The notes below the pieces were generated by a model. It had not been told where the DNA came from. It worked only from the letters and a program-made list of their open reading frames with translations, and ran no database searches. Positions 1,722-46,491 of a DNA stretch of 64,000 bases are shown one piece after another (positions within the stretch are counted from its first letter, which is position 1; every line of letters starts with the position of its first letter). The stretch is from Sulfurimonas sp. (GTDB lineage: Bacteria; Campylobacterota; Campylobacteria; Campylobacterales; Sulfurimonadaceae). The DNA is taken from NCBI GenBank assembly GCA_027019335.1, contig JALUWV010000028.1:1-64000 (forward strand), in the 5' to 3' direction. The translations under genes were made by a program, and so were the position numbers.

Positions 1722-2747
<1,026 letters not shown>

Positions 2748-2783
2748 TTAATAGTGTAATCTTAGCAAAAAAAGTGCCATTAT

Positions 2784-2810
2784 TAAATAAATTTCTTATT
2801 TTACCGATAT
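2784..2810 (+). promoter_or_regulatory. Sigma-28 (FliA) type promoter of fliD
   Basis: TAAATAAA (2784-2791), an 11-base spacer, then ACCGATAT (2803-2810). This matches the flagellar sigma-28 consensus TAAA-N15/16-CCGATAT in sequence and spacing. The fliD start codon is 56 bases downstream, preceded by an AAGGA ribosome binding site. The match places fliD and probably fliS in the late flagellar class. Confidence 0.8.
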
Positions 2811-2866
2811 AAGGTAGGTATAGTAAGAATTATAATAATGAAAGATTATTAAAAAAAGGATTTGTT

Positions 2867-4270
2867 ATGGGTATATCATCACTTGGTGCTGGTTCAAATG
2901 TTTTAACACAAGATGTAATAGACCAACTGAAAAAAGCAGATGAGGCTCAATTTGTACAACCATTGACATCAAAAGTTTCTGCTGAAAAAAGTAAAAGTGG
3001 TAAATTAGATATCGTGAATGCTTTGATGGATAACTTATCTGAGAGTACTGGTAATGTGGCTGATGTGGGGCTTTTTAACACAAGATCGGCAACTGTTACC
3101 GGAAGTGCTGTTGAAGTTGTTGCAAATGGAGGAAGTGATATTCAAGATTTTAATATTACAGTCAATCATTTGGCAACAAAAGAGATAGAACAGTCTGGGT
3201 CATTTGCTACTGCTGACACCTCAATAGCGACGGGGGATGGACAATTAAAACTTAGTGTAGGTTCTAAAGATTTTTTAGTGGATTATACATCAGCTACATC
3301 TTTAACAGATTTAAGAAACCAAATCAACAAAGATGCAAAAGGAACGTTGCAAGCAAGCATTGTAGAAGTTGCAAAAGATGATTTTCGGCTCTTTTTAACA
3401 GCTGCAAATACAGGAACAGGACAGAATGTTTCCATTACAGATGTTGCAGGGAAAGGAGAAAATCTTAAAGACCAACTCAAAGCCGATACGGATACAACTG
3501 ATGGGTACACAAATGTACAAACTGCACAGGATGCAAGTTTTACATATAATAATTTAGCTATTACAAGAACGAGTAATACGGTAAGTGATTTACTAGCAGG
3601 TGTGACAATAACACTCAAAGAGGGAACCGATGCAAATCCGAGTACATCGAGTGTGAGTGTAACACAGGATGTAACAGGAATTGAAGATAAACTGGATAGT
3701 TTTGTTTCAAAATTTAATTCTGCAATTAGAGAGTTAGATACAATGACAAAGGCAAGTAAAGATGCAAAAGTACGCGGAATTTTTTCTAACGATGGTACAA
3801 TCAAGGGTATGAAAAATACAGTGAGGACAATGCTCGGTACAGCGGGTGAAGGTGTAGGGCGTTTAGAAGACTATGGTTTTGCTTCGAACAGAGATGGAAC
3901 CATTAGTATCGATAAATCTATATTTGAAACAAAACTGAAAGAAAATCCAGAAAATGTAGCTGCATTTTTCGTAGGAGGAGACTTTACCTCAAATGGAAGT
4001 ACAAAAACATTATCTGGTGCCTTTACTGAGATGAAAAGTAAAGTAGATAGCTATACAAACTATAATGCAACACTAGACCAGCTTAAAACATCTTATACAA
4101 CACAAATAACTTCCCTTGAGGACCGACAACAGGCGGCAACCGATAGATTGACAGCAAAGTATGCGATTATGAAAAAAAGATTTGCAGCATATGATGTTAT
4201 GATAAATAAGATTAACTCAGCATCAGATATCTTTACACAATTAGCAAATCAAAATAATAATAATAACTAA
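2867..4270 (+). CDS. fliD: Flagellar hook-associated protein 2 (filament cap)
   Basis: This 467-residue FliD caps the growing flagellar filament and helps flagellin subunits fold at the tip. The N-terminus MGISSLGAGSNVLTQDVIDQ is the conserved export and coiled-coil segment. The central part is rich in Thr, Ser and Ala. The C-terminal about 80 residues (SSYTTQ-like heptads through RQQAATDRLTAKY) form the second coiled coil, ending in an Asn-rich tail. It is shorter than Campylobacter jejuni FliD (about 640 residues), so domain insertions are missing. fliS follows after 60 bases, the usual order. Confidence 0.95.
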   Translation: MGISSLGAGSNVLTQDVIDQLKKADEAQFVQPLTSKVSAEKSKSGKLDIVNALMDNLSESTGNVADVGLFNTRSATVTGSAVEVVANGGSDIQDFNITVNHLATKEIEQSGSFATADTSIATGDGQLKLSVGSKDFLVDYTSATSLTDLRNQINKDAKGTLQASIVEVAKDDFRLFLTAANTGTGQNVSITDVAGKGENLKDQLKADTDTTDGYTNVQTAQDASFTYNNLAITRTSNTVSDLLAGVTITLKEGTDANPSTSSVSVTQDVTGIEDKLDSFVSKFNSAIRELDTMTKASKDAKVRGIFSNDGTIKGMKNTVRTMLGTAGEGVGRLEDYGFASNRDGTISIDKSIFETKLKENPENVAAFFVGGDFTSNGSTKTLSGAFTEMKSKVDSYTNYNATLDQLKTSYTTQITSLEDRQQAATDRLTAKYAIMKKRFAAYDVMINKINSASDIFTQLANQNNNNN

Positions 4271-26080: not shown

Positions 26081-27064
26081 TTAAAGAGAACTTTTTGGGC
26101 TTATGTCCAAATCTTTCATTTCTGAAAAAAGTTTTTGTTTATACATATCGACGCCAACTCTACCTATCATTGCGGCATTATCTGAACAGTATTGGAGTTC
26201 ACTTAAAATGAGTTTTGCATTATGCGGTTTTAAAAGGGCTTCTATTTGTGAACGCAGGTAGAGGTTTGCACTCGCTCCACCGACGATAGCAAAGGTATTT
26301 GGATTATGTGTTTTAAAGTACTTTTTGAGTTTCATTGTAAGATGTTTGGTGGCAATATGCTCAAATGAAGCGGCAATATCTGGGTACTTTGTTGTATCCC
26401 CATCTGCTTCAAGGACTGCTAAACGCACTGCATTTTTGAGTCCTGAGTAGCTAAAGGCAATGAGGGGGGATTGATGAAGGGGGACTGTGAAGTTGTATTT
26501 CAATCTATCGCCATTTTTTGCAAGGTTTTGGATGGCAGGACCTCCAGGGTAACCAAGTCCCATCATCTTTGCTACCTTGTCAAAACTCTCTCCAAAACTA
26601 TCATCCATACTTTTAGCTACAGTCTCTATCTCTGTGAGACTTTTGACTTCCATGACTTGTGTATGCCCACCTGAAACAAGCAATACTGTGAGTGGAAATA
26701 GTGTCTCTTTTTCGATAAAAAGTGAGTAAATATGACCTATAAGGTGGTTCACTCCGATGAGAGGAATCTCTAAAGCAACACTAATCGCTTTTGCCATCGT
26801 AACCCCCTCAACCAGTGTGACTGCTAAACCAGGAGTAGCCGTAACAGCTACAGCTTTGAGCTTTGGAAAATACGCCTCAACTTGTGCAAGTATTTGAGGA
26901 AGTGCTTGCGCATGTAATCTAGCTGCAAGTTCAGGAACAACACCACCATAAACACTATGCTCTATCTCTTGAGAGATTTTTTTATGAAAAAGAAGTTTGT
27001 TTGTTGCAATCTCGGTAATAGCTATCGCACTATCATCACAAGAACTTTCTATAGATAAAATCAT
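26081..27064 (-). CDS. tsaD: tRNA threonylcarbamoyladenosine synthase subunit TsaD
   Basis: A 327-residue TsaD with the metal-binding HLIGH motif ([12 protein letters not shown]), the N-terminal [15 protein letters not shown] and the GGASAN segment of the ASKHA fold. It transfers the threonylcarbamoyl group to A37 of ANN-decoding tRNAs with TsaB and TsaE. The start overlaps the stop of the upstream DNA methyltransferase by four bases (ATGA). Confidence 0.96.
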
Positions 27065-28116
27065 CGGTTTTTTTCCTTTGGCATACTTGTTAGAAGTGTA
27101 GCTATAAGCTTTGGTGGTACACCTTCACCTATTACTTCACGTATCATCTGTTCACTTGCCCACTTTGGAGCTTCCCAATCATCAGGTAAACCTGTCAAGA
27201 TAAATATTTCTTTGAGTGTGAGTACCCGTGCATCACTGTATGTGCCATCTTTTTTTAAACGACCAGGGTGAACATTGTTTTGGCTTGAAATGGAGCCATT
27301 TGCCATGGTTATTGTCGGTGCGGGTTTGTCCCACTCTATGCGTTTATAAGTTGTATCATAGCCTTTTATGCGGGTGCCATCTGCTTTTTTAGGGTAGTGG
27401 ACTTTGTTGTGGAGGGCTGTTTTTCCTGTTGGGGTATGTTGTAAAAAAGCAATATGACGTTCATTATGCTCTTTTGCTTTGTGAAAAGGTATGGATGAAC
27501 GCTCTCCACTCTCTAAACTTGGTAGATGTTCTATCGCTTCCCTTACAGTTATTTTTTCTTGCTTTGGAGGCAACTCCCATTTGTGTAGTTTTGAGATGAG
27601 ATAGATAGCCCGTTTACGGCTTTGGGGTGTGCCATACTCTGCCGCATCGACTACAACAGGATTGATAATGTAGCCTAAAGGCTCTAGCTCATTTTTGATA
27701 AAGTCAGTGATTTTGAGTTTCTCTTTTTTATGTACAAGGTAAGTGTTGAGTACTTTTGGTACATTTTCTATGAGAATATTGTTGGGTTGTAGCTCTTGTG
27801 CAAGTGTTATCACATACTTAATGAGTGAGTTTCTTGGGTCATCTTCTTGCATTCTTCCTGCAAGACTCATCCCTTGACATGGTGGCGTAGCGATGAGAAA
27901 ATCACACTTTTTTGCTTTTGCTTTTGTGCAAATAGCCTCAAAAATATCTTCTTGAGTAATATCGCCTTGCACCATTTCACAATGCTTGTGCATCTCTTGA
28001 TGAAATGCAGCACGCGGAGGGAGAAGTTCGTTGGCAACGGCTATATGAATATCGTGGTTTTTTATGTAGGTTTCAGCTATGCCTACATTTGCAAAAAGAG
28101 AGACACCTTGAATCAT
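27061..28116 (-). CDS. DNA (cytosine-5) methyltransferase without a restriction partner
   Basis: 351 residues from ATG 28116; an in-frame TTG one codon earlier is less likely. It has the catalytic PPCQG motif ([14 protein letters not shown]), ENVP (motif VI), a QSRKR segment (motif VIII), and a divergent motif I ([12 protein letters not shown] in place of DLFxGxGG). The variable region is followed by [11 protein letters not shown]. It should methylate cytosine C5 in an unknown target. No nuclease gene adjoins it; it is coupled to tsaD by an ATGA overlap, so it is an orphan methylase in a housekeeping operon. Confidence 0.85.
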
Positions 28117-28134
28117 CAATATGTACCTTTTTAC

Positions 28135-37579: not shown

Positions 37580-38325
37580 AATGATTTTGTTTTCCTTTGG
37601 CTCTCTTGTTTGTATTTGTTTGCATAAAGGTGTGACTCTTGGCTAGGGGTTTGGTCTAAAAATTCACCAAACATAATGAGTGCCACTCCTTTGATATGTG
37701 CTACCTTCGCCTCAATGTTTGCTATATTTCCCTTATAAACTTTTTCATCTGCCCATGTTGCTTTTTCTACGACCCAACAAGGTGTCTCTTCATTGTAGCC
37801 GAGTTTATAGGCTGTCTCTTTGAGCTTTTTTATAAGGGTAATAGAAAGATAAAATGCAAAAGAAGAGTGTTTGTTTGAGAGGAGTTGTTCTAAACTCTCT
37901 GGATTGGGTGTTCTTCCTTCAACTCGAGAGATGATGAGTGTTTGTGAAACCCCAGGGATAGTATACTCAATAGCCGCTGATGCTGCCGCACCAAATGCAG
38001 CAGTGACCCCAGGGATGATTTCAAATGCTATGTTTTTTTCTTTTAAAAATGCTATCTGTTTAGCGGTCGTTGAGTAGATAGAGCTATCGCCAGTATGTAA
38101 ACGCACAAACCTTTTCTCAGCATATTTTTTTATAAAAGCAAAAATATCTTCATAGTTCATATCTGCAGAATTTTCTATGATTGTTCCCTCTTGACACCAA
38201 TCAAGCAGTTCACGAGGGACTAAAGAACCCGTATAGAGTACGACTTCCGCTTCTTGCAAAGCTTTCATCCCTTTAACAGTTATAAGTTCTGGGTCTCCTG
38301 GACCTGCTCCTACAAATTTAATCAT
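37576..38325 (-). CDS. cbiF: Cobalt-precorrin-4 C11-methyltransferase
   Basis: A 249-residue SAM methyltransferase of the CobM/CbiF type: IKFVGAGPGDPELITVKGMK at the N-terminus, the family's VRLHTGDSSIYS, and EIIPGVTAAFGAAA. Its start overlaps the stop codon of the RelE-like toxin gene by four bases. Its translation and transcription are therefore tied to the toxin-antitoxin pair upstream. Confidence 0.93.
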   Translation of the reverse strand: MIKFVGAGPGDPELITVKGMKALQEAEVVLYTGSLVPRELLDWCQEGTIIENSADMNYEDIFAFIKKYAEKRFVRLHTGDSSIYSTTAKQIAFLKEKNIAFEIIPGVTAAFGAAASAAIEYTIPGVSQTLIISRVEGRTPNPESLEQLLSNKHSSFAFYLSITLIKKLKETAYKLGYNEETPCWVVEKATWADEKVYKGNIANIEAKVAHIKGVALIMFGEFLDQTPSQESHLYANKYKQESQRKTKSL

Positions 38326-38603
38326 TTTTTATCCTCATAAATACTTTTTCTTTGTCCTACACGAAGTACTAAAAGTACTATTTCATTATCTATAATCTGA
38401 AATAAAACACGTATCTTTCTTGCTACGACAAATCTATATTGGTTCTCATAAAGTGTACCTTTAAGCTGTGTCACTTTTTTTGATTGCTTGAGTAATTCAA
38501 AATTTTTGCATAAATACTCTATTTTTTTAGCGATAAGTATTTTATCAGGTTGAGAAAAATTTTTTAAATCTTTGAGTGCTTTATCAGAGTATTTGAGTTT
38601 CAA
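38322..38603 (-). CDS. RelE/ParE-superfamily toxin
   Basis: A 93-residue protein with the RelE-like order: KLKYSDKALKDLKNF, then LKGTLYENQYRFVVARKIRVLFQII and IVLLVLRVGQRKSIYEDK at the end. RelE-type toxins cut ribosome-bound mRNA and ParE-type toxins block gyrase; basic and Arg/Tyr residues near the C-terminus favour an RNase. The ATG overlaps the antitoxin stop, and the stop overlaps the cbiF ATG, each by four bases. Confidence 0.82.
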   Translation of the reverse strand: MKLKYSDKALKDLKNFSQPDKILIAKKIEYLCKNFELLKQSKKVTQLKGTLYENQYRFVVARKIRVLFQIIDNEIVLLVLRVGQRKSIYEDKK

Positions 38604-40045: not shown

Positions 40046-41127
40046 GTTAGTACTTCCTTTATCTCGTTTGGTAGAGTAATCGTCTCAACTTCTTTCACCT
40101 GTAATCCAAGTTCACAAAACCACTCTTTGAGTTTCTGTGCAGATTTATACCCTAAAAGTTTTATAAATGGCTCTTTGTATTTGTTTGGAAGTGTTTGTAA
40201 AACTCCCTTTAAGGTTACAAACTCTTCATCGCCTAAATCATAATTTAGTTCTGCTTTAAGCCATTTTTTCACCTCTGTAAAATCAATACTTCCATACTTG
40301 TTGTGTGTGTTTTTAAAGCCTTGTGCCACCTTGCACATTTTCGCAACACTTGTCACAAAAACCACTCTTTTGATGGTGTGCTTTTGCAAACGCTCCGCAG
40401 CATCATAGACGAAGTTACCTATCTCGATGATAGAACTTTCATCATACTGTTTTTTTGCATAATCATGAGCTGAGTTGCCAAGAGTAAAGATGATTTTTTC
40501 TTGCGACTCGGCTATGGCAACATTTATCTCCGCTACAATAGAATCAATGTATGCCGAAGCTGACACAGGTTTCACAATGCCCCGAGTTCCTAAGATAGAG
40601 ATACCACCAAGCACACCCACTTTTGCATTAGCTGTATCTCTTGCGATTTTTTCACCTTCTTTGACACTAAAAACAGCATGGAAAATTTCTTCTGAGTCTT
40701 GTACAATGTTTTTGGAATTTTCTTGCATCATCTCTAAGGGTATTGGATTGATAGCAGGGTGTGTTGGCTCGATTTTTAAGCCTTTTTTGGTCACAACCCC
40801 AACGCCTGTGCCTGCATAAACATAAATCTTCACTCCTTGTATTTCTAAAAGTGAGGGTTCTTGTGCTTTTAATCTTTGAGGAGTTTGTGTCGTAAGTTGG
40901 CAGAAAATCTCACAACCTTTTGTCACATCCATATCGTCATTGTCGCCTTTTATAGTGCTAAAAGAACAAGCACTTTCTCTTTGTACTTCTATAAGTGCTT
41001 CTTGCCCTTGCGGTAAAAGAACGGCTAAATTTTCGATAAACAGCTTGTCAAAATACTCATACAAGCAAGCTAAAAGTGTCGCTGTTGCGTGTGTGCCTGT
41101 GGTATAGCCAGATTTTAATTGTGGCAT
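40039..41127 (-). CDS. cbiD: Cobalt-precorrin-5B C1-methyltransferase
   Basis: A 362-residue CbiD: N-terminal LKSGYTTGTHATATLLA (the CbiD signature RxGxTTGxxAxAA), TKGCEI, VYAGTGVGVVTKKGL, GISILGTRGIVKP. It methylates C1 in the anaerobic pathway. The ATG lies inside the last codons of the phosphoesterase gene (13-base overlap), with GAAGAA as a possible ribosome binding site. Confidence 0.94.
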   Translation of the reverse strand: MPQLKSGYTTGTHATATLLACLYEYFDKLFIENLAVLLPQGQEALIEVQRESACSFSTIKGDNDDMDVTKGCEIFCQLTTQTPQRLKAQEPSLLEIQGVKIYVYAGTGVGVVTKKGLKIEPTHPAINPIPLEMMQENSKNIVQDSEEIFHAVFSVKEGEKIARDTANAKVGVLGGISILGTRGIVKPVSASAYIDSIVAEINVAIAESQEKIIFTLGNSAHDYAKKQYDESSIIEIGNFVYDAAERLQKHTIKRVVFVTSVAKMCKVAQGFKNTHNKYGSIDFTEVKKWLKAELNYDLGDEEFVTLKGVLQTLPNKYKEPFIKLLGYKSAQKLKEWFCELGLQVKEVETITLPNEIKEVLTW

Positions 41128-41801
41128 TGTTCTTCATAAATTGTAAAGTTATCTTTATTCATTTCTTCAAATACAACAGCAGACAACTTATTACCATAAA
41201 CACAACCCGTATCTATTCCTAAAGTATGATTATTTTTCTTCACTTCTTTAAACCATTGATGCCCATAGATTATAAATCCTTGATTTCCGTCATAAATATC
41301 AGCCCAAAAAATTGAATTTTTGTCTTCTTTACCATAAGTAATAAAATTATGTTCACTATCTAGGTATCGCATTCTCAGTATTTTAGATTTTTCTTTTTTT
41401 GTGAGATTATTAAGATTATGATGATTCTGAATACCACCATGAAGAACTATTATATTTTTAAACTGTAAAAAGAGAGGCATATCTTTTAGATATTTTATAT
41501 CTTCATCATCTAATTTTTCTATGATTGACCTTTCATCATCATCGAGTAAAATGGGATTTTTTTTCTCACTCTTTTCATGTTCTAAATATCTTACTAACTT
41601 ATCTTCATGATTACCCAAAATAGATTTTATATTGTGTTTTTGTATATATTTTAAAAGTTTAACAGAGTTTTTCCCTTTCGTGATGACATCTCCAACACAT
41701 ACCTCTATATCATTTTTATCTGGATTTATCTTTTTTCTTAGAGACATAAACTCGTTATAGCAACCGTGAATATCTCCGTATATTATTAATTTATTGTTCA
41801 A
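41115..41801 (-). CDS. PPP-family metallophosphoesterase
   Basis: A 228-residue protein with the full PPP/calcineurin motif set: GDIHG (9-13), GDVITKG, GNHED, HGG and YGHQ. It resembles bacterial PrpE/ApaH-type phosphatases acting on phosphoproteins, dinucleotides or RNA ends. Starts at TTG (41801), inside the end of the receiver-HEPN gene (11-base overlap); no later start would keep the GDIHG motif. It ends inside cbiD. Last gene of the putative defence cassette; it may reset a phosphorylated partner. Confidence 0.85.
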   Translation of the reverse strand: MNNKLIIYGDIHGCYNEFMSLRKKINPDKNDIEVCVGDVITKGKNSVKLLKYIQKHNIKSILGNHEDKLVRYLEHEKSEKKNPILLDDDERSIIEKLDDEDIKYLKDMPLFLQFKNIIVLHGGIQNHHNLNNLTKKEKSKILRMRYLDSEHNFITYGKEDKNSIFWADIYDGNQGFIIYGHQWFKEVKKNNHTLGIDTGCVYGNKLSAVVFEEMNKDNFTIYEEQCHN

Positions 41802-42720
41802 TTGACTTTTCTATCTTTAATAGTAATTTTTTATATTTTTTAATATCTTTTCTAATTTTTATACATTTTTCAGCAGTAAATGGTATGTTTGCAATCACTT
41901 TACAAGCATTTCCATTTTCATCTTTTCCATCACATTCTTCAATATGTGCAAACTTATTTCTTTTATCTAAAATATCATCTATATAAGGTTGTGTAAAATC
42001 TTTTTTTGTAATGACTTCTTCAATATTTAATTTTTCTAAAATTTCTCCTGTTGCCATTGCTTTTTTATTACTATCTATAAAACCTAAATTAGTAAACAAT
42101 ATTTTAAAAGTGGTCTCAGAAATATTATCTAAAAATTTTTGTGCTTTATTCTTATTTCCATTCCCCGAATCTCTTACCTTTTTTAATGTATATTTTTCAA
42201 TCGCTTTATCATCAATTTTTGGTGATGCCTTGAGTATGATTTTTTCTTTGAGTCTATCTAGTTCAGAAACTTCAGCCATAATAAGACCACGAAGGTTATT
42301 AATATCTTGAGTTTTTTTAATAGTAATATCTATAATTTGTCTAACTTTATCTTCAAGTTCATTTCTACTAGAAGTAAAAATACCCTCAACAAAATGTTCG
42401 TTAAGCTTCCTATTTAACTCTTCATATTGAGATGAATAAAATACAATTTCTGTATACACTTTCTCATCTCGTATTTTTGTGATAATTGTATTTCCTTCAT
42501 CTTTTGTTTCTTGATTTCCTAAATCTAAATCTATAAGCAATAAATCATATTCAGATGTATTGTCATAACCTATATCATCTTCAAAACTTGAAAAATTATT
42601 TATCTCTTGAATTTCACATTCAAACCCCAAATCTTCTATATACTCTTTTATTAATCGTTTATCTCTCCGAATAGATATAGGATTATCTTCAACCCATAAA
42701 ATTTTATACTCTAATTTCAT
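41791..42720 (-). CDS. Response-regulator receiver fused to a putative HEPN RNase domain
   Basis: A 309-residue protein. Residues 1-125 form a receiver: acidic pocket VEDN, phospho-acceptor Asp in LLLIDLDLG, switch Ser in IVFYSSQ; the usual beta-5 Lys is replaced (GIFTSSRN). A helical C-terminal half (about 135-309) carries RNKFAH, which fits the R-x4-H catalytic motif of HEPN RNases. No DNA-binding output domain is seen. The ATG overlaps the stop of the GHKL gene (ATGA), so the putative sensor and this protein are co-translated. The HEPN call rests on the motif and helical context only. Confidence 0.72.
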   Translation of the reverse strand: MKLEYKILWVEDNPISIRRDKRLIKEYIEDLGFECEIQEINNFSSFEDDIGYDNTSEYDLLLIDLDLGNQETKDEGNTIITKIRDEKVYTEIVFYSSQYEELNRKLNEHFVEGIFTSSRNELEDKVRQIIDITIKKTQDINNLRGLIMAEVSELDRLKEKIILKASPKIDDKAIEKYTLKKVRDSGNGNKNKAQKFLDNISETTFKILFTNLGFIDSNKKAMATGEILEKLNIEEVITKKDFTQPYIDDILDKRNKFAHIEECDGKDENGNACKVIANIPFTAEKCIKIRKDIKKYKKLLLKIEKSIEQ

Positions 42721-45245
42721 AATTTAAGCCTTAATATAAATTTAATTCCTTTATCCAAACGATATGCATTAATAGTAGAATGATTCATCTCTTCTAAAAT
42801 TTCTTTAATGTGGAAAAGACCAAGTCCTGAACCTTTTGTAGTCGTCACTCCCATTTCAAAAATGGAATTTTCATCTATGATTGTATTATTTAGTCCACAA
42901 CCATCATCAATATATTCGATTTCAATGTCCTTATCATTTTTTATAAAATTTAAAGTTACATTTTTGGCTTTTGCTTTTTTAGAATTATTTAGTAAATTAT
43001 CAATCACTATATTTATTTTTATTGGCTCAAAACTACAACTATAATTTATATTATTTGTATTGACTCTAATTATCAACTCTTTATTTGTCGTAACTTCATA
43101 TATATTTCTAATATATTCATTTATAAATTTTACTAAATCTTTTATAACATTAGTTGCTGTTGATAAAAAATCTTCTTTTGTTATATACTTACTGATTAAA
43201 GATATTTTATCTAGTTCAAATGATGCATCTTTTAAATATTCATAAATATTACTATCTATAGTAGAATTTCTTTTTAACATATCTACAACATCTAAAATAC
43301 AATCTTTTGCTGTTTTTGTATATAAGCCTATATGATGCTGAAATGCAATAAGTTCTTTCACATCTTTAGATTGAACTGTTTTTAAATAAGTTAATTCTTC
43401 ATCTTTCTTTTTATTTGTTAAGTTCGCGACATGTAGTTTTTCTTTTAATTTTTCTTCATTATCTTTTAATACAAGTATTTTTTTATCAAGTTCTTGATAT
43501 GACTCTGCATTATCAATTACATCATCAATGAGTTGATTACTATTTTTTTGGCTAATTAAAAAAGATATTTTTTTCATTAATCTTTTATCTTCTGTTATCT
43601 TAAGTATTTTTTTAGCAAACCTCTTTAAACTATTTGAGATTGCTGATTGTGGTAATTTTGAAAATTCTTTTAAAAATTTTGTAATGTTTTTCTGTACTAA
43701 TAAATTTTCTTTTTCTTCAAATAGAGATGTAAGTATTTTTTCATCAATATTTATATCTATTGCATCTTTGGCATCAATGCCTATAATCTTAAATATATTT
43801 TGACTAATATTTTTTTTCTTTTCTTCCTCAGAAAGTAGATAGACCTCTTGCTTTTTCTTCCAATCTTTATTTAAAGTAATCTCTCGTATATATGATTCTG
43901 TATATTTTTTAGGGACACTATCCCATCGTATTCCACTTACTACATATCTTTCCAATCGTTTAAGTGTTTTATAAAAGAAGCCATTATTCTTTTTTTGAGC
44001 TGTTGTAGATTTTGTGGATACATGTATAAGCTGTTTAAACTTTTCGTTATGAACGATTCCTTCCCTACTTGATATTACATGATACTGCTCATCTCTATCC
44101 TCTATTTCAATTCTTCCAATAACTTCACGGTTACTTAAATATCTGTTTCTTCCCTGATTTTTTCTTACTTCCATGCCAAATGCATCATTATCAATATCTC
44201 CATAAGGTGGTATTCTAAAACCATTTATAAACAAATATACTGAACCAAACTCTACACTTCGCATTTGCATCTGTTTTTGAAAATATGCTTTAGCATAAGG
44301 ATTGAGATACATTAAAATAACCTTCACAGCTTTTAAATCAGGGAACTCTCTATTTTTTTCTATTGTTTTGAAAACGATTTTATCTCTGTCTTTGAGTTGT
44401 GTAATTATTTGTGTTCCATCTTCACTAATTATTGACTGTATATATGTTGTGTCAAAATTGAGTTTATCAAAAAATTTATTTGTAATTTCACCATTTATCT
44501 TTTTGTAATAAGTCGTTTGATTTGCATCATCTATCTCTTTGACATGCAGATGTATTTTAAATCCACCACTATCAACTTGACTCTTGTTTATCAATTTTTC
44601 TAAAGAAGCTTTTAATTTAGAAAATTTTTGATAATTTATCACATCGTTAAATAAACTGTTTTGATTTATTTCTATCCATTTTGTTCGCAAACTAACAATT
44701 TGTACAATTGTTCCTGCTATACTTATTTTGTATCCAGTTTCATCAAATACTTCTTTTTTACTTATTTCTCGTAACTTCATTGGAATCTGATTTATTTCAA
44801 CACTGTAATCTTCAATATTTTCAAAATCTTCCCAATTAATTTGGAGTTGATAAAGTTTCCCTTCTTTCTGTTTTGTAAAAATATTAAGTTTTTTTCCTAA
44901 CCTATCACATGAAAATCTACCAATCCCTTTATTCCCAGCCTGTAAACGATTATTTTGTGCATTTTGTACTCTTTTTATAGAGTATGCCAAATTCAGCCAT
45001 TTGTGTAATATATCTTCTTTGGACATCCCTTTACCATTATCTGATATGATAATTTCATGATTGATAGTATCTACACTTTTTAAATTTTTAAACTCTACAT
45101 CGACCTTTGATGCTCCCGCATCATAGGAGTTTTTAACAAGTTCCATAACAGCAACACTGTCATCATTTATAAGTTCTTTACCAATAATATTTTTTATATT
45201 AACATGAGATAAAAAATGTACTTTTTCCCACTCTGCAGTAGCCAT
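42717..45245 (-). CDS. Large protein with two GHKL ATPase modules (MORC/Hsp90-like plus histidine-kinase-like)
   Basis: An 842-residue soluble protein. N-terminal Bergerat fold: N-box ELVKNSYDA (35-43), DNGKGM (69-74), GNKGIGRFS (104-112), as in MORC/Hsp90/MutL ATPases. The middle region is coiled coil (about 600-660). The C-terminal about 110 residues form a second, kinase-type HATPase: DNLLNNSKKA, YIDDGCGL, GSGLGLFHIKEIL. AFQHHIGLYTKT before it may be an H-box. Followed by a receiver gene, so phosphotransfer is plausible. Very AT-rich (9 G/C in 43081-43140). Overlaps the methylase stop by one base. Confidence 0.8.
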   Translation of the reverse strand: MATAEWEKVHFLSHVNIKNIIGKELINDDSVAVMELVKNSYDAGASKVDVEFKNLKSVDTINHEIIISDNGKGMSKEDILHKWLNLAYSIKRVQNAQNNRLQAGNKGIGRFSCDRLGKKLNIFTKQKEGKLYQLQINWEDFENIEDYSVEINQIPMKLREISKKEVFDETGYKISIAGTIVQIVSLRTKWIEINQNSLFNDVINYQKFSKLKASLEKLINKSQVDSGGFKIHLHVKEIDDANQTTYYKKINGEITNKFFDKLNFDTTYIQSIISEDGTQIITQLKDRDKIVFKTIEKNREFPDLKAVKVILMYLNPYAKAYFQKQMQMRSVEFGSVYLFINGFRIPPYGDIDNDAFGMEVRKNQGRNRYLSNREVIGRIEIEDRDEQYHVISSREGIVHNEKFKQLIHVSTKSTTAQKKNNGFFYKTLKRLERYVVSGIRWDSVPKKYTESYIREITLNKDWKKKQEVYLLSEEEKKKNISQNIFKIIGIDAKDAIDINIDEKILTSLFEEKENLLVQKNITKFLKEFSKLPQSAISNSLKRFAKKILKITEDKRLMKKISFLISQKNSNQLIDDVIDNAESYQELDKKILVLKDNEEKLKEKLHVANLTNKKKDEELTYLKTVQSKDVKELIAFQHHIGLYTKTAKDCILDVVDMLKRNSTIDSNIYEYLKDASFELDKISLISKYITKEDFLSTATNVIKDLVKFINEYIRNIYEVTTNKELIIRVNTNNINYSCSFEPIKINIVIDNLLNNSKKAKAKNVTLNFIKNDKDIEIEYIDDGCGLNNTIIDENSIFEMGVTTTKGSGLGLFHIKEILEEMNHSTINAYRLDKGIKFILRLKL

Positions 45246-46438
45246 TATAAAATTTCCTTCAAAACTATCCCAGCCTGTTCCCCAAAAAGAGGGGGAATTG
45301 CATTACCTATTTGAGTATATCTTGGTACATCTTTTTTTCTTCTCTCTCCACCTGTTGTATAACCTGCTTTAAATTCATAATCATCTGGAAAAGATTGGAT
45401 TCTTGCATACTCTCTTACTGTTAAGATTCTTGGTTCGCAGTAGTGAATGTAATCATCAGGGAGTGTAGTGAGTGTTGGAGTACAAGAGTTTTGACATAGT
45501 GGCACAGTTGTTCGTTTTTTCATTTTGTATTTTGCTTTGATGGCTTCGGAGATGTTTTTATTTTTAACACCATTTTCTAAGATATACTGAAATTTTTCTA
45601 CAGTCTCTTTTCTGTGTTTTGCAAATCTGTGACTATCTGCGATGGTATTTGTCAAAGGTTTTGATGCTCGCATAAGCTTTTGATAAGAACTTTGTTCTTT
45701 AGCATAAAGACCAGCTTCAAAACTTTTTGTATCAGGAGATGCTTGTGTCCCATTAGATTTTAACAAATCAGAAATAGCATCACTTAGAGAGGTAGTATTG
45801 TTAATCTTTTTTGATTTGAAAAAATCTACACTATTTTGAGTTATTTTATGAAAAAAACTTTTAGCATTCCCTTTCTTAGAACCAACTAAAATATACCTTT
45901 GGCGTTTTTGTGGAATGCCATACTCAGAAAAATCAACAATCTCTCCGTGTACATCATAACCAAGTTTTTCAAGTTTATCGACAACATAAGTAGAGTATGC
46001 CTGACCTCTTTTATTGCCTTTTTTAAAACCAATAGTAAACCCTTTTACATTTTCAAAAAAAAGCAATTCAGGCTCAACAAGTTCTACAAACCTAATATAT
46101 GAATCTATAAGCTTATTTCTATCATCAGACTCTCTTCTGCGTCCTGCCATAGAAAAACCTTGACATGGTGGTCCACCTGCAATAAGTTTAATTTTCCCTT
46201 TTAAAGATATTAACTTTTCTTCATGTTCTTTGAGTACATCATTTATATCATGGTTTTTCTTTTCTAACCATGATGGCCAGTTAAAGTTTTTATTTTTCTC
46301 AATTTGATTGTAGTGAAGTGTTTTAAAAGCATCTGCACTTTTTTCAACAGCAAAAAGTCCTTGCCAACCTGCATTATGAAGTCCTAAAGCAAGCCCACCA
46401 CAGCCTGAAAAAAGGTCAATATATGTTAATTTTTTCAA
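45245..46438 (-). CDS. DNA (cytosine-5) methyltransferase of the cassette
   Basis: A 397-residue C5 methylase with full motifs: I (TYIDLFSGCGGLALG), IV (GGPPCQGFSMAGRR), VI (FFENVKGF), VIII (QKRQRYILVG) and X (QIGNAIPPLFGEQAG). The target-recognition region lies about 230-330. Start at TTG 46438 with AAAGG six bases upstream. It is the first gene of a four-gene unit with the GHKL, receiver-HEPN and phosphoesterase genes. No classical restriction enzyme gene is present. Confidence 0.9.
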   Translation of the reverse strand: MKKLTYIDLFSGCGGLALGLHNAGWQGLFAVEKSADAFKTLHYNQIEKNKNFNWPSWLEKKNHDINDVLKEHEEKLISLKGKIKLIAGGPPCQGFSMAGRRRESDDRNKLIDSYIRFVELVEPELLFFENVKGFTIGFKKGNKRGQAYSTYVVDKLEKLGYDVHGEIVDFSEYGIPQKRQRYILVGSKKGNAKSFFHKITQNSVDFFKSKKINNTTSLSDAISDLLKSNGTQASPDTKSFEAGLYAKEQSSYQKLMRASKPLTNTIADSHRFAKHRKETVEKFQYILENGVKNKNISEAIKAKYKMKKRTTVPLCQNSCTPTLTTLPDDYIHYCEPRILTVREYARIQSFPDDYEFKAGYTTGGERRKKDVPRYTQIGNAIPPLFGEQAGIVLKEIL

Positions 46439-46462
46439 TGCAAACCTTTATAAATATACTTT

Positions 46463-46468
46463 ATTATA
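46463..46468 (-). promoter_or_regulatory. -10 box upstream of the methyltransferase cassette
   Basis: TATAAT on the minus strand with a T-rich stretch before it and no good -35, as is usual for Campylobacterota sigma-70. It lies 24 bases before the TTG start. A 6-bp inverted repeat (ACTAAG 46474-46479, CTTAGT 46491-46496) lies just upstream. It may give the cassette its own transcription inside the cobalamin chain. Confidence 0.45.
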
Positions 46469-46491
46469 TCTTGACTAAGCAAAAAATGTTC

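Follow-up and report, generated by a model that had tools for sequence, protein, structure and literature searches.

The stretch of DNA considered here, called the window throughout, comprises 64,000 nucleotides of Sulfurimonas sp. (NCBI GenBank assembly GCA_027019335.1, contig JALUWV010000028.1, positions 1 to 64,000 of the forward strand) and is part of one contig (C28) of a host assembly of 116 contigs. At 41115-46438 it carries four open reading frames (ORFs), all on the minus strand and with translational overlaps, which make up the cassette under study: genes for a C5-cytosine DNA methyltransferase, a protein with two GHKL ATPase modules (hereafter the kinase protein), a receiver-HEPN protein, and a PPP-family phosphoesterase (Table 1). 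These ORFs and their domain types had been proposed in an earlier note, made by a model from the sequence alone, and they are present where it placed them, with Pfam support. Seeking domains down to E ≤ 1, we found that the methylase matches DNA_methylase (4e-57), the kinase protein HATPase_c_3 at its N-terminal end (3.6e-26) and HATPase_c at its C-terminal end (3.3e-16), the receiver protein Response_reg (1.3e-4), and the phosphoesterase Metallophos (1.1e-12). The note had also described the block as AT-rich; its G/C counts (9 in 43081-43140, 25 in 40081-40140) are exact, and the cassette has a GC content of 27.5%, with 36.8% and 36.3% in the flanks. A promoter and terminator scan of the cassette returned no more than chance, and the promoter consensus missed the TATAAT-like sequence at the upstream junction. 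As the end of the phosphoesterase gene overlaps the start codon of cbiD, cbiD remains within the transcription unit.

Table 1. The cassette, its junctions, and predicted functional elements, in window coordinates (aa, amino acids)
Feature	Position	Strand	Remarks
C5-cytosine DNA methyltransferase	45245..46438	(-)	397 aa, TTG start; motifs DLFSGCGG, PPCQ, ENV, QKRQR, GNAIPP
Double-GHKL (kinase) protein	42717..45245	(-)	842 aa; MutL/MORC-type ATPase N-terminal, histidine kinase C-terminal
ParaMORC-type module, ~aa 8-440	43926..45224	(-)	HATPase_c_3; likely DNA sensor
Kinase half, ~aa 600-842	42720..43448	(-)	DHp-like helical segment + HATPase_c; N, G1, G2 boxes conserved
His637 codon	43335..43337	(-)	predicted phospho-acceptor; His in 79/79 aligned proteins
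Receiver-HEPN protein	41791..42720	(-)	309 aa
Receiver domain, aa 1-137	42310..42720	(-)	AlphaFold2 model matches receivers; PDB profile matches
Asp64 codon, phospho-acceptor	42529-42531	(-)	Asp in 57/57 and 69/69 aligned
HEPN domain, aa 138-309	41791..42309	(-)	predicted RNase output; PF18735 HEPN_RiboL-PSP 5.5e-6; helical model
RNKFAH, R-x4-H HEPN catalytic motif, Arg254-His259	41944..41961	(-)	R, H invariant
PPP-family (ApaH-like) phosphoesterase	41115..41801	(-)	TTG start; motifs GDIHG, GDxITKG, GNHE, HGG
Upstream junction, ferredoxin-like gene stop to methylase start	46439..46491	(-)	holds TATAAT-like sequence
Downstream junction	41115..41127	(-)	phosphoesterase 3' end overlaps cbiD start codon

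Judging from sequence, a HEPN domain very likely makes up the C-terminal part of the receiver protein. The Arg and His of the motif are invariant in a 57-sequence alignment and in 51 C-terminal halves, and the pattern RN-x-x-[AG]-H (once RD) occurs in 58 of 59 receiver proteins. When C-terminal halves were scanned alone, HEPN_RiboL-PSP was the top Pfam match for that of the window, and the three Pfam families matched by most of the halves are all HEPN families. Similarly, hhalign against HEPN proteins from the same order gave an E-value of 1.6e-4 (probability 50%), versus 0.14-0.94 for the controls, which were one helical control and shuffled columns. The AlphaFold2 model of the whole protein (mean predicted local distance difference test score 92.7, predicted template modelling score 0.88) consists of a receiver and, C-terminal to it, a helical domain in which RNKFAH lies at the end of a long helix. 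The earlier note had left room for a non-HEPN fold in this half; the near-invariant motif, the Pfam matches, and the confident helical model favour HEPN. Searching PDB with the receiver protein as a single query returned nothing meaningful, a 57-row profile found receiver structures, and a HEPN profile search of PDB chains found no HEPN structure.

The kinase protein retains the motifs of both ATPase modules in a five-way alignment. Its homology to MutL/PMS2 is confined to the N-terminal module, a GHKL ATPase with intact motifs in a restriction-modification (R-M) context, as is characteristic of paraMORCs, and this module is likely a DNA sensor. The features of a two-component pair are also in place: the kinase and receiver genes are adjacent, His637 is kept in all 79 kinase proteins, and Asp64 is kept in all 69 receivers. 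The residue that follows His637 is mostly His, Gln, or Thr, not Glu/Asp, in the same 79 proteins. It is worthwhile to consider here the best NCBIfam match of the kinase protein, NF050001 (the BbrUII/HgiDII restriction family; aa 20-177, 7.9e-17), which would suit a type II-like restriction system with the paraMORC protein as endonuclease, as in BbrUII/HgiDII, and the receiver protein as a regulator only. We judge this highly improbable. At 61 bits the match is far under the cut-off of 550, and it extends over the ATPase only. The protein ends in a histidine kinase, a search for a nuclease domain in it found none, and a near-invariant HEPN motif would not be needed for mere regulation. Neither the Pfam nor the PADLOC scan recognised a DNA-nuclease domain anywhere in the cassette, so the counterpart of the methylase is most simply the kinase/HEPN pair.

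The unit recurs well beyond the window. Our survey of the order covered 299 genomes, and a genome-wide scan for full-length relatives of the kinase protein returned 80 loci. Within the order, only a handful of genomes hold such relatives, and all four genes occur in four cassettes, that of the window included, so that the distribution is patchy. Three loci (L035, L036, and L037) have the four genes in the order seen in the window; in L038 the phosphoesterase is absent and the receiver gene is split by a frameshift. The closest cassette-bearing kin of the host are Campylobacterota, and the methylase is 74-79% identical to those of other cassettes from that phylum. The kinase gene has a methylase gene as its immediate upstream neighbour in 73 of the 80 loci and no more than three genes away in 78. 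In 78 of 79 complete loci it is followed at ≤20 bp by a co-directional (receiver) gene (overlapping or abutting in 63), whose product carries the RN-x-x-[AG]-H motif in 56. The version with a receiver-HEPN protein spans about 11 phyla, including an archaeal lineage: Campylobacterota, Bacteroidota, Bacillota, Pseudomonadota, Planctomycetota, Spirochaetota, Chloroflexota, Acidobacteriota, Patescibacteria, a Bathyarchaeota assembly, and a locus placed with Myxococcota. No metabolic neighbour is conserved across the systems. The arrangement is not due to chance, as other Campylobacterota also have the four-gene cassette and dozens of distant genomes its three-gene core. The possibility raised by the note that the genes do not co-occur elsewhere is thereby answered for the core; the fourth gene travels with it in Campylobacterota only.

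Alongside this unit, in a second double-GHKL group, from the Campylobacterota loci L040-L043, the genes that follow encode a receiver-type protein of 360-384 aa, a protein of unknown function of 230-256 aa, and an N6-methylase-like protein. This is a separate conserved arrangement, read in three of the four loci.

What follows the kinase gene is not always a receiver-HEPN protein. In a well-supported Bacteroidota clade of the kinase tree, a receiver-type protein of ~230 aa is followed by a separate protein of ~215 aa that replaces the HEPN half, which makes the output exchangeable. The ~215-aa family (L075:11260-11907 and 14 relatives) is uncharacterised and has invariant GHG and C-x-S motifs. 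One member gives a weak match to Peptidase_C25, and a confident model of the protein shows weak similarity to caspase/MALT1 in Foldseek (E 0.02-0.09); a caspase-like effector is only suggestive. More distant relatives, on plasmids, point to additional candidate outputs for this signalling core: there a kinase relative and a short receiver-type protein are followed by an HNH nuclease (L175, Deinococcus) or by a metallo-beta-lactamase-fold hydrolase (L176, Burkholderia; L178, Pseudanabaena). Four other loci (L065, L069, L095, and L100) consist of a methylase, a kinase, and a bare 126-141-aa receiver, with no recognisable output adjoining. Toxic outputs swapped behind a constant sensor are typical of immune systems.

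The window cassette lies precisely between the ferredoxin-like gene and cbiD and shares the orientation of both. The gene cbiD is present in 10 of 41 genomes of the genus, including that of the window, and in six of seven relatives examined (L144, L145, L146, L147, L149, and L150) the ferredoxin-like gene and cbiD are only ~5-10 bp apart. Since these six keep an uninterrupted junction, we regard the cassette as an insertion, and the view of the earlier note that the block splits the cobalamin genes at this point is borne out. The seventh relative (L148, G323, ~2497-3815) holds another insertion, of 1.3 kb, with a helix-turn-helix-type gene and a 166-aa ORF of unknown function; a different insert at the same spot indicates that this junction takes insertions repeatedly. 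We saw no mobility gene at the insertion and no target duplication above chance. A 7-bp direct repeat, AAGAACA, present at both junctions, was considered as a target-site duplication and set aside, as a repeat of 7 bp also arises in 11% of trials with shuffled flanks. Two further observations concern other parts of the window: a 93-aa RelE-like toxin ORF lies right downstream of the cobalamin genes (38322-38603), and next to a tsaD-like gene (26081-27064) there is a second C5 methylase gene (27061-28119), near which no partner nuclease was seen.

Elsewhere, some kinase relatives are plasmid-borne, the neighbourhood of the L035 cassette includes a type I R-M system, and an alignment-based viral scan found relatives on viral contigs (L152 and L159), unlike a viral scan with a single protein query, which gave no match. 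On one of these contigs (L152, IMGVR_UViG_2857266821_000007) there are a methylase, a kinase gene broken by an opposite-strand ORF, and a receiver-HEPN gene, which suggests carriage by prophage or other mobile DNA. Sequence comparison thus supports the view that the cassette is probably mobile. An insertion with relatives on plasmids and viral contigs would also suit an addiction or stabilisation module, in which the methylase acts as antitoxin and the kinase-HEPN pair as toxin, the whole serving the mobile element and any defence being a by-product; R-M systems are known to behave as addiction modules. We find this quite unlikely: a sensor with two ATPase engines and a phosphorelay exceeds the need of such a module, and the exchangeable effectors resemble immune systems.

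The same distribution bears on the idea that the cassette is an epigenetic regulatory two-component system with no anti-phage role, whose kinase reads DNA methylation or nucleotide state and whose receiver-HEPN protein is a stress-response RNase or RNA-binding regulator. The window cassette does lie inside a metabolic operon, in transcriptional order with it, and the first members of a related family were found as genes induced in a plant pathogen, for which nucleoside triphosphate sensing was suggested (PMC8011034). However, the patchy, mobile distribution, the relatives on viral contigs, the R-M neighbours, the exchange of the output for other predicted toxins or nucleases, and the want of a conserved metabolic neighbour all speak against regulation, and we consider it unlikely.

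The phosphoesterase stands somewhat apart from the other three proteins. It keeps the GDxHG, GDxxxxG, GNHE, and H motifs of PPP enzymes, and the solved structures nearest to it are ApaH-like. Of the systems surveyed, only those of Campylobacterota include it: 8 of 11 complete cassettes besides that of the window. In other families of the order, homologues with 37-56% identity are stand-alone genes with housekeeping neighbours; in the listed genomes of the window's own genus, none was found outside the cassette. We considered it as a core part of the system and rejected this, given that it is limited to Campylobacterota loci and that its homologues stand alone there. It was probably recruited late, from a host ApaH-like family, and may serve in receiver dephosphorylation, alarmone hydrolysis, or RNA-end processing. 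The step in the earlier note by which the phosphoesterase resets the system is unsupported, since most systems lack the protein and its kin are stand-alone housekeeping genes.

Taking together the gene linkage, the domain make-up, the conserved catalytic residues, the insertion at an otherwise intact junction, and the exchangeable output, we propose that the module is a mobile anti-phage or anti-plasmid system, R-M-like in plan, whose restriction arm would be a two-component phosphorelay with an RNase as its final output. The C5 methylase would mark host DNA as self. The paraMORC ATPase would engage unmethylated or otherwise foreign DNA by ATP-dependent clamping, and this would bring the kinase halves together and lead to autophosphorylation of His637. 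The phosphate would then pass to Asp64 of the receiver-HEPN protein, freeing or dimerising the HEPN domain, which would cleave RNA by means of Arg254 and His259 and stop growth (abortive infection). In Campylobacterota, the phosphoesterase would modulate the response by removing the phosphate or an alarmone signal, or by treating the cleaved RNA ends. We lean towards a methylation-gated, phosphotransfer-triggered abortive defence that works by roughly this route.

Several points weigh against this proposal. Phage resistance, phosphotransfer, and RNase activity are predictions for every member found. The HEPN_RiboL-PSP score of the window protein is 26.9 bits, just under the Pfam gathering cut-off of 28.4, and among the matches listed by Foldseek for the full model (PDB, BFVD) there are only receiver-type structures and no HEPN, so the C-terminal fold rests on sequence profiles and the motif. 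In addition, by our own reading the usual receiver beta-5 Lys is not apparent in the window protein, and the cassette lies outside any recognised defence island in its own genome. No model in PADLOC-DB 2.0 fits the kinase or the effector, and annotation by that route would consequently list a solitary methylase only.

A broader formulation, which we put forward tentatively, is that of a widespread and undescribed class of immunity in which methylation sensing would lead, through paraMORC-driven His-Asp phosphotransfer, to interchangeable effectors (a HEPN RNase, a possible caspase-like protease, an HNH nuclease, and a metallo-beta-lactamase-fold hydrolase), with restriction by phosphorelay and not by DNA cutting. 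The finding is in any case more general than the four-gene cassette with which the earlier note was headed. If the proposal is right, a single operon, present in about 11 phyla, brings together R-M, two-component signalling, and abortive infection by an RNase.

The caution of the note that the system may have been described was well placed. The methylase/paraMORC-kinase/receiver core was reported in 2021 as HEF_HK / Response_reg_2 (PF19191, PF19192; Bellieny-Rabelo et al., PMC8011034), in a description that does not give the output or the mechanism and mentions neither HEPN nor RNase (PMC8011034). What the present analysis offers to this widespread R-M-linked "two-component-like" element is an output and a testable signalling order, both lacking there. 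The cassette shares with HEF_HK elements a kinase composed of HATPase_c_3, a DHp-like segment, and HATPase_c, an adjacent receiver gene, a C5 methylase neighbour, and a scattered distribution. It differs in that its phospho-His is mostly without a following acidic residue in the window family and in that its output is a HEPN domain. Moreover, the window proteins match neither PF19191 nor PF19192 at E ≤ 1, which makes the family a sister variant with an identifiable effector. PF19192 was found nowhere in the host genome and only weakly in one locus, L130 (E 0.024). A true HEF_HK system does occur in the same genus (L181, 3708-9804 of G202:C71), where a vsr-like gene, a 990-aa kinase with the HEF motif, a 559-aa Response_reg_2 protein, and a C5 methylase adjoin Tn7-like transposition genes and are apparently transposon cargo; no RNxxAH motif was seen in the 559-aa protein.

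The link of paraMORCs with R-M is older, MutL/MORC-like GHKL ATPases having been described beside DNA methylases by Iyer, Abhiman, and Aravind in 2008 (PMC2292703). Some of these carry an effector of their own, a restriction endonuclease-fold nuclease or TIR, and that paper mentions no receiver, response regulator, or HEPN (PMC2292703). In the cassette, by contrast, ATPase and histidine kinase form one protein, and a separate receiver protein serves as the effector. Similarly, R-M neighbourhoods contain fusions of a paraMORC ATPase with a HEPN domain of the Ymh type (Anantharaman et al. 2013, PMC3710099). The pairing of paraMORC and HEPN in an R-M context is shared with the cassette, whereas the direct fusion, the absence of a kinase and receiver, and the HEPN family are not. 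In Detocs, a two-component phage-defence system, the kinase contains TPRs, an additional receiver protein is present, and the effector is a PNP that degrades ATP; the outcome is abortive, and Detocs is not known to include a methylase. It has in common with the cassette a histidine kinase and a receiver-fused effector, together with the abortive outcome that we propose, but no PNP effector or TPR domain was found in the cassette at E ≤ 1.

Control of an effector by a GHKL ATPase has an experimental precedent in phage defence: in VcSduA, a Shedu type with a GHKL N-terminus, the ATPase controls a nuclease (PMC12137116). VcSduA is, unlike the cassette, a single protein with a PD-(D/E)xK nuclease and has no methylase, kinase, or receiver. 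The abbreviation list of the predicted-systems figure in DefensePredictor (PMC13092281) includes HATPase and REC, and overlap with the cassette family is possible. Because its core architecture has been published, the cassette is not categorically new; what sets it apart as a distinct variant is that its effector can be identified, that a phosphoesterase accompanies it as an accessory, and that its outputs are exchangeable.

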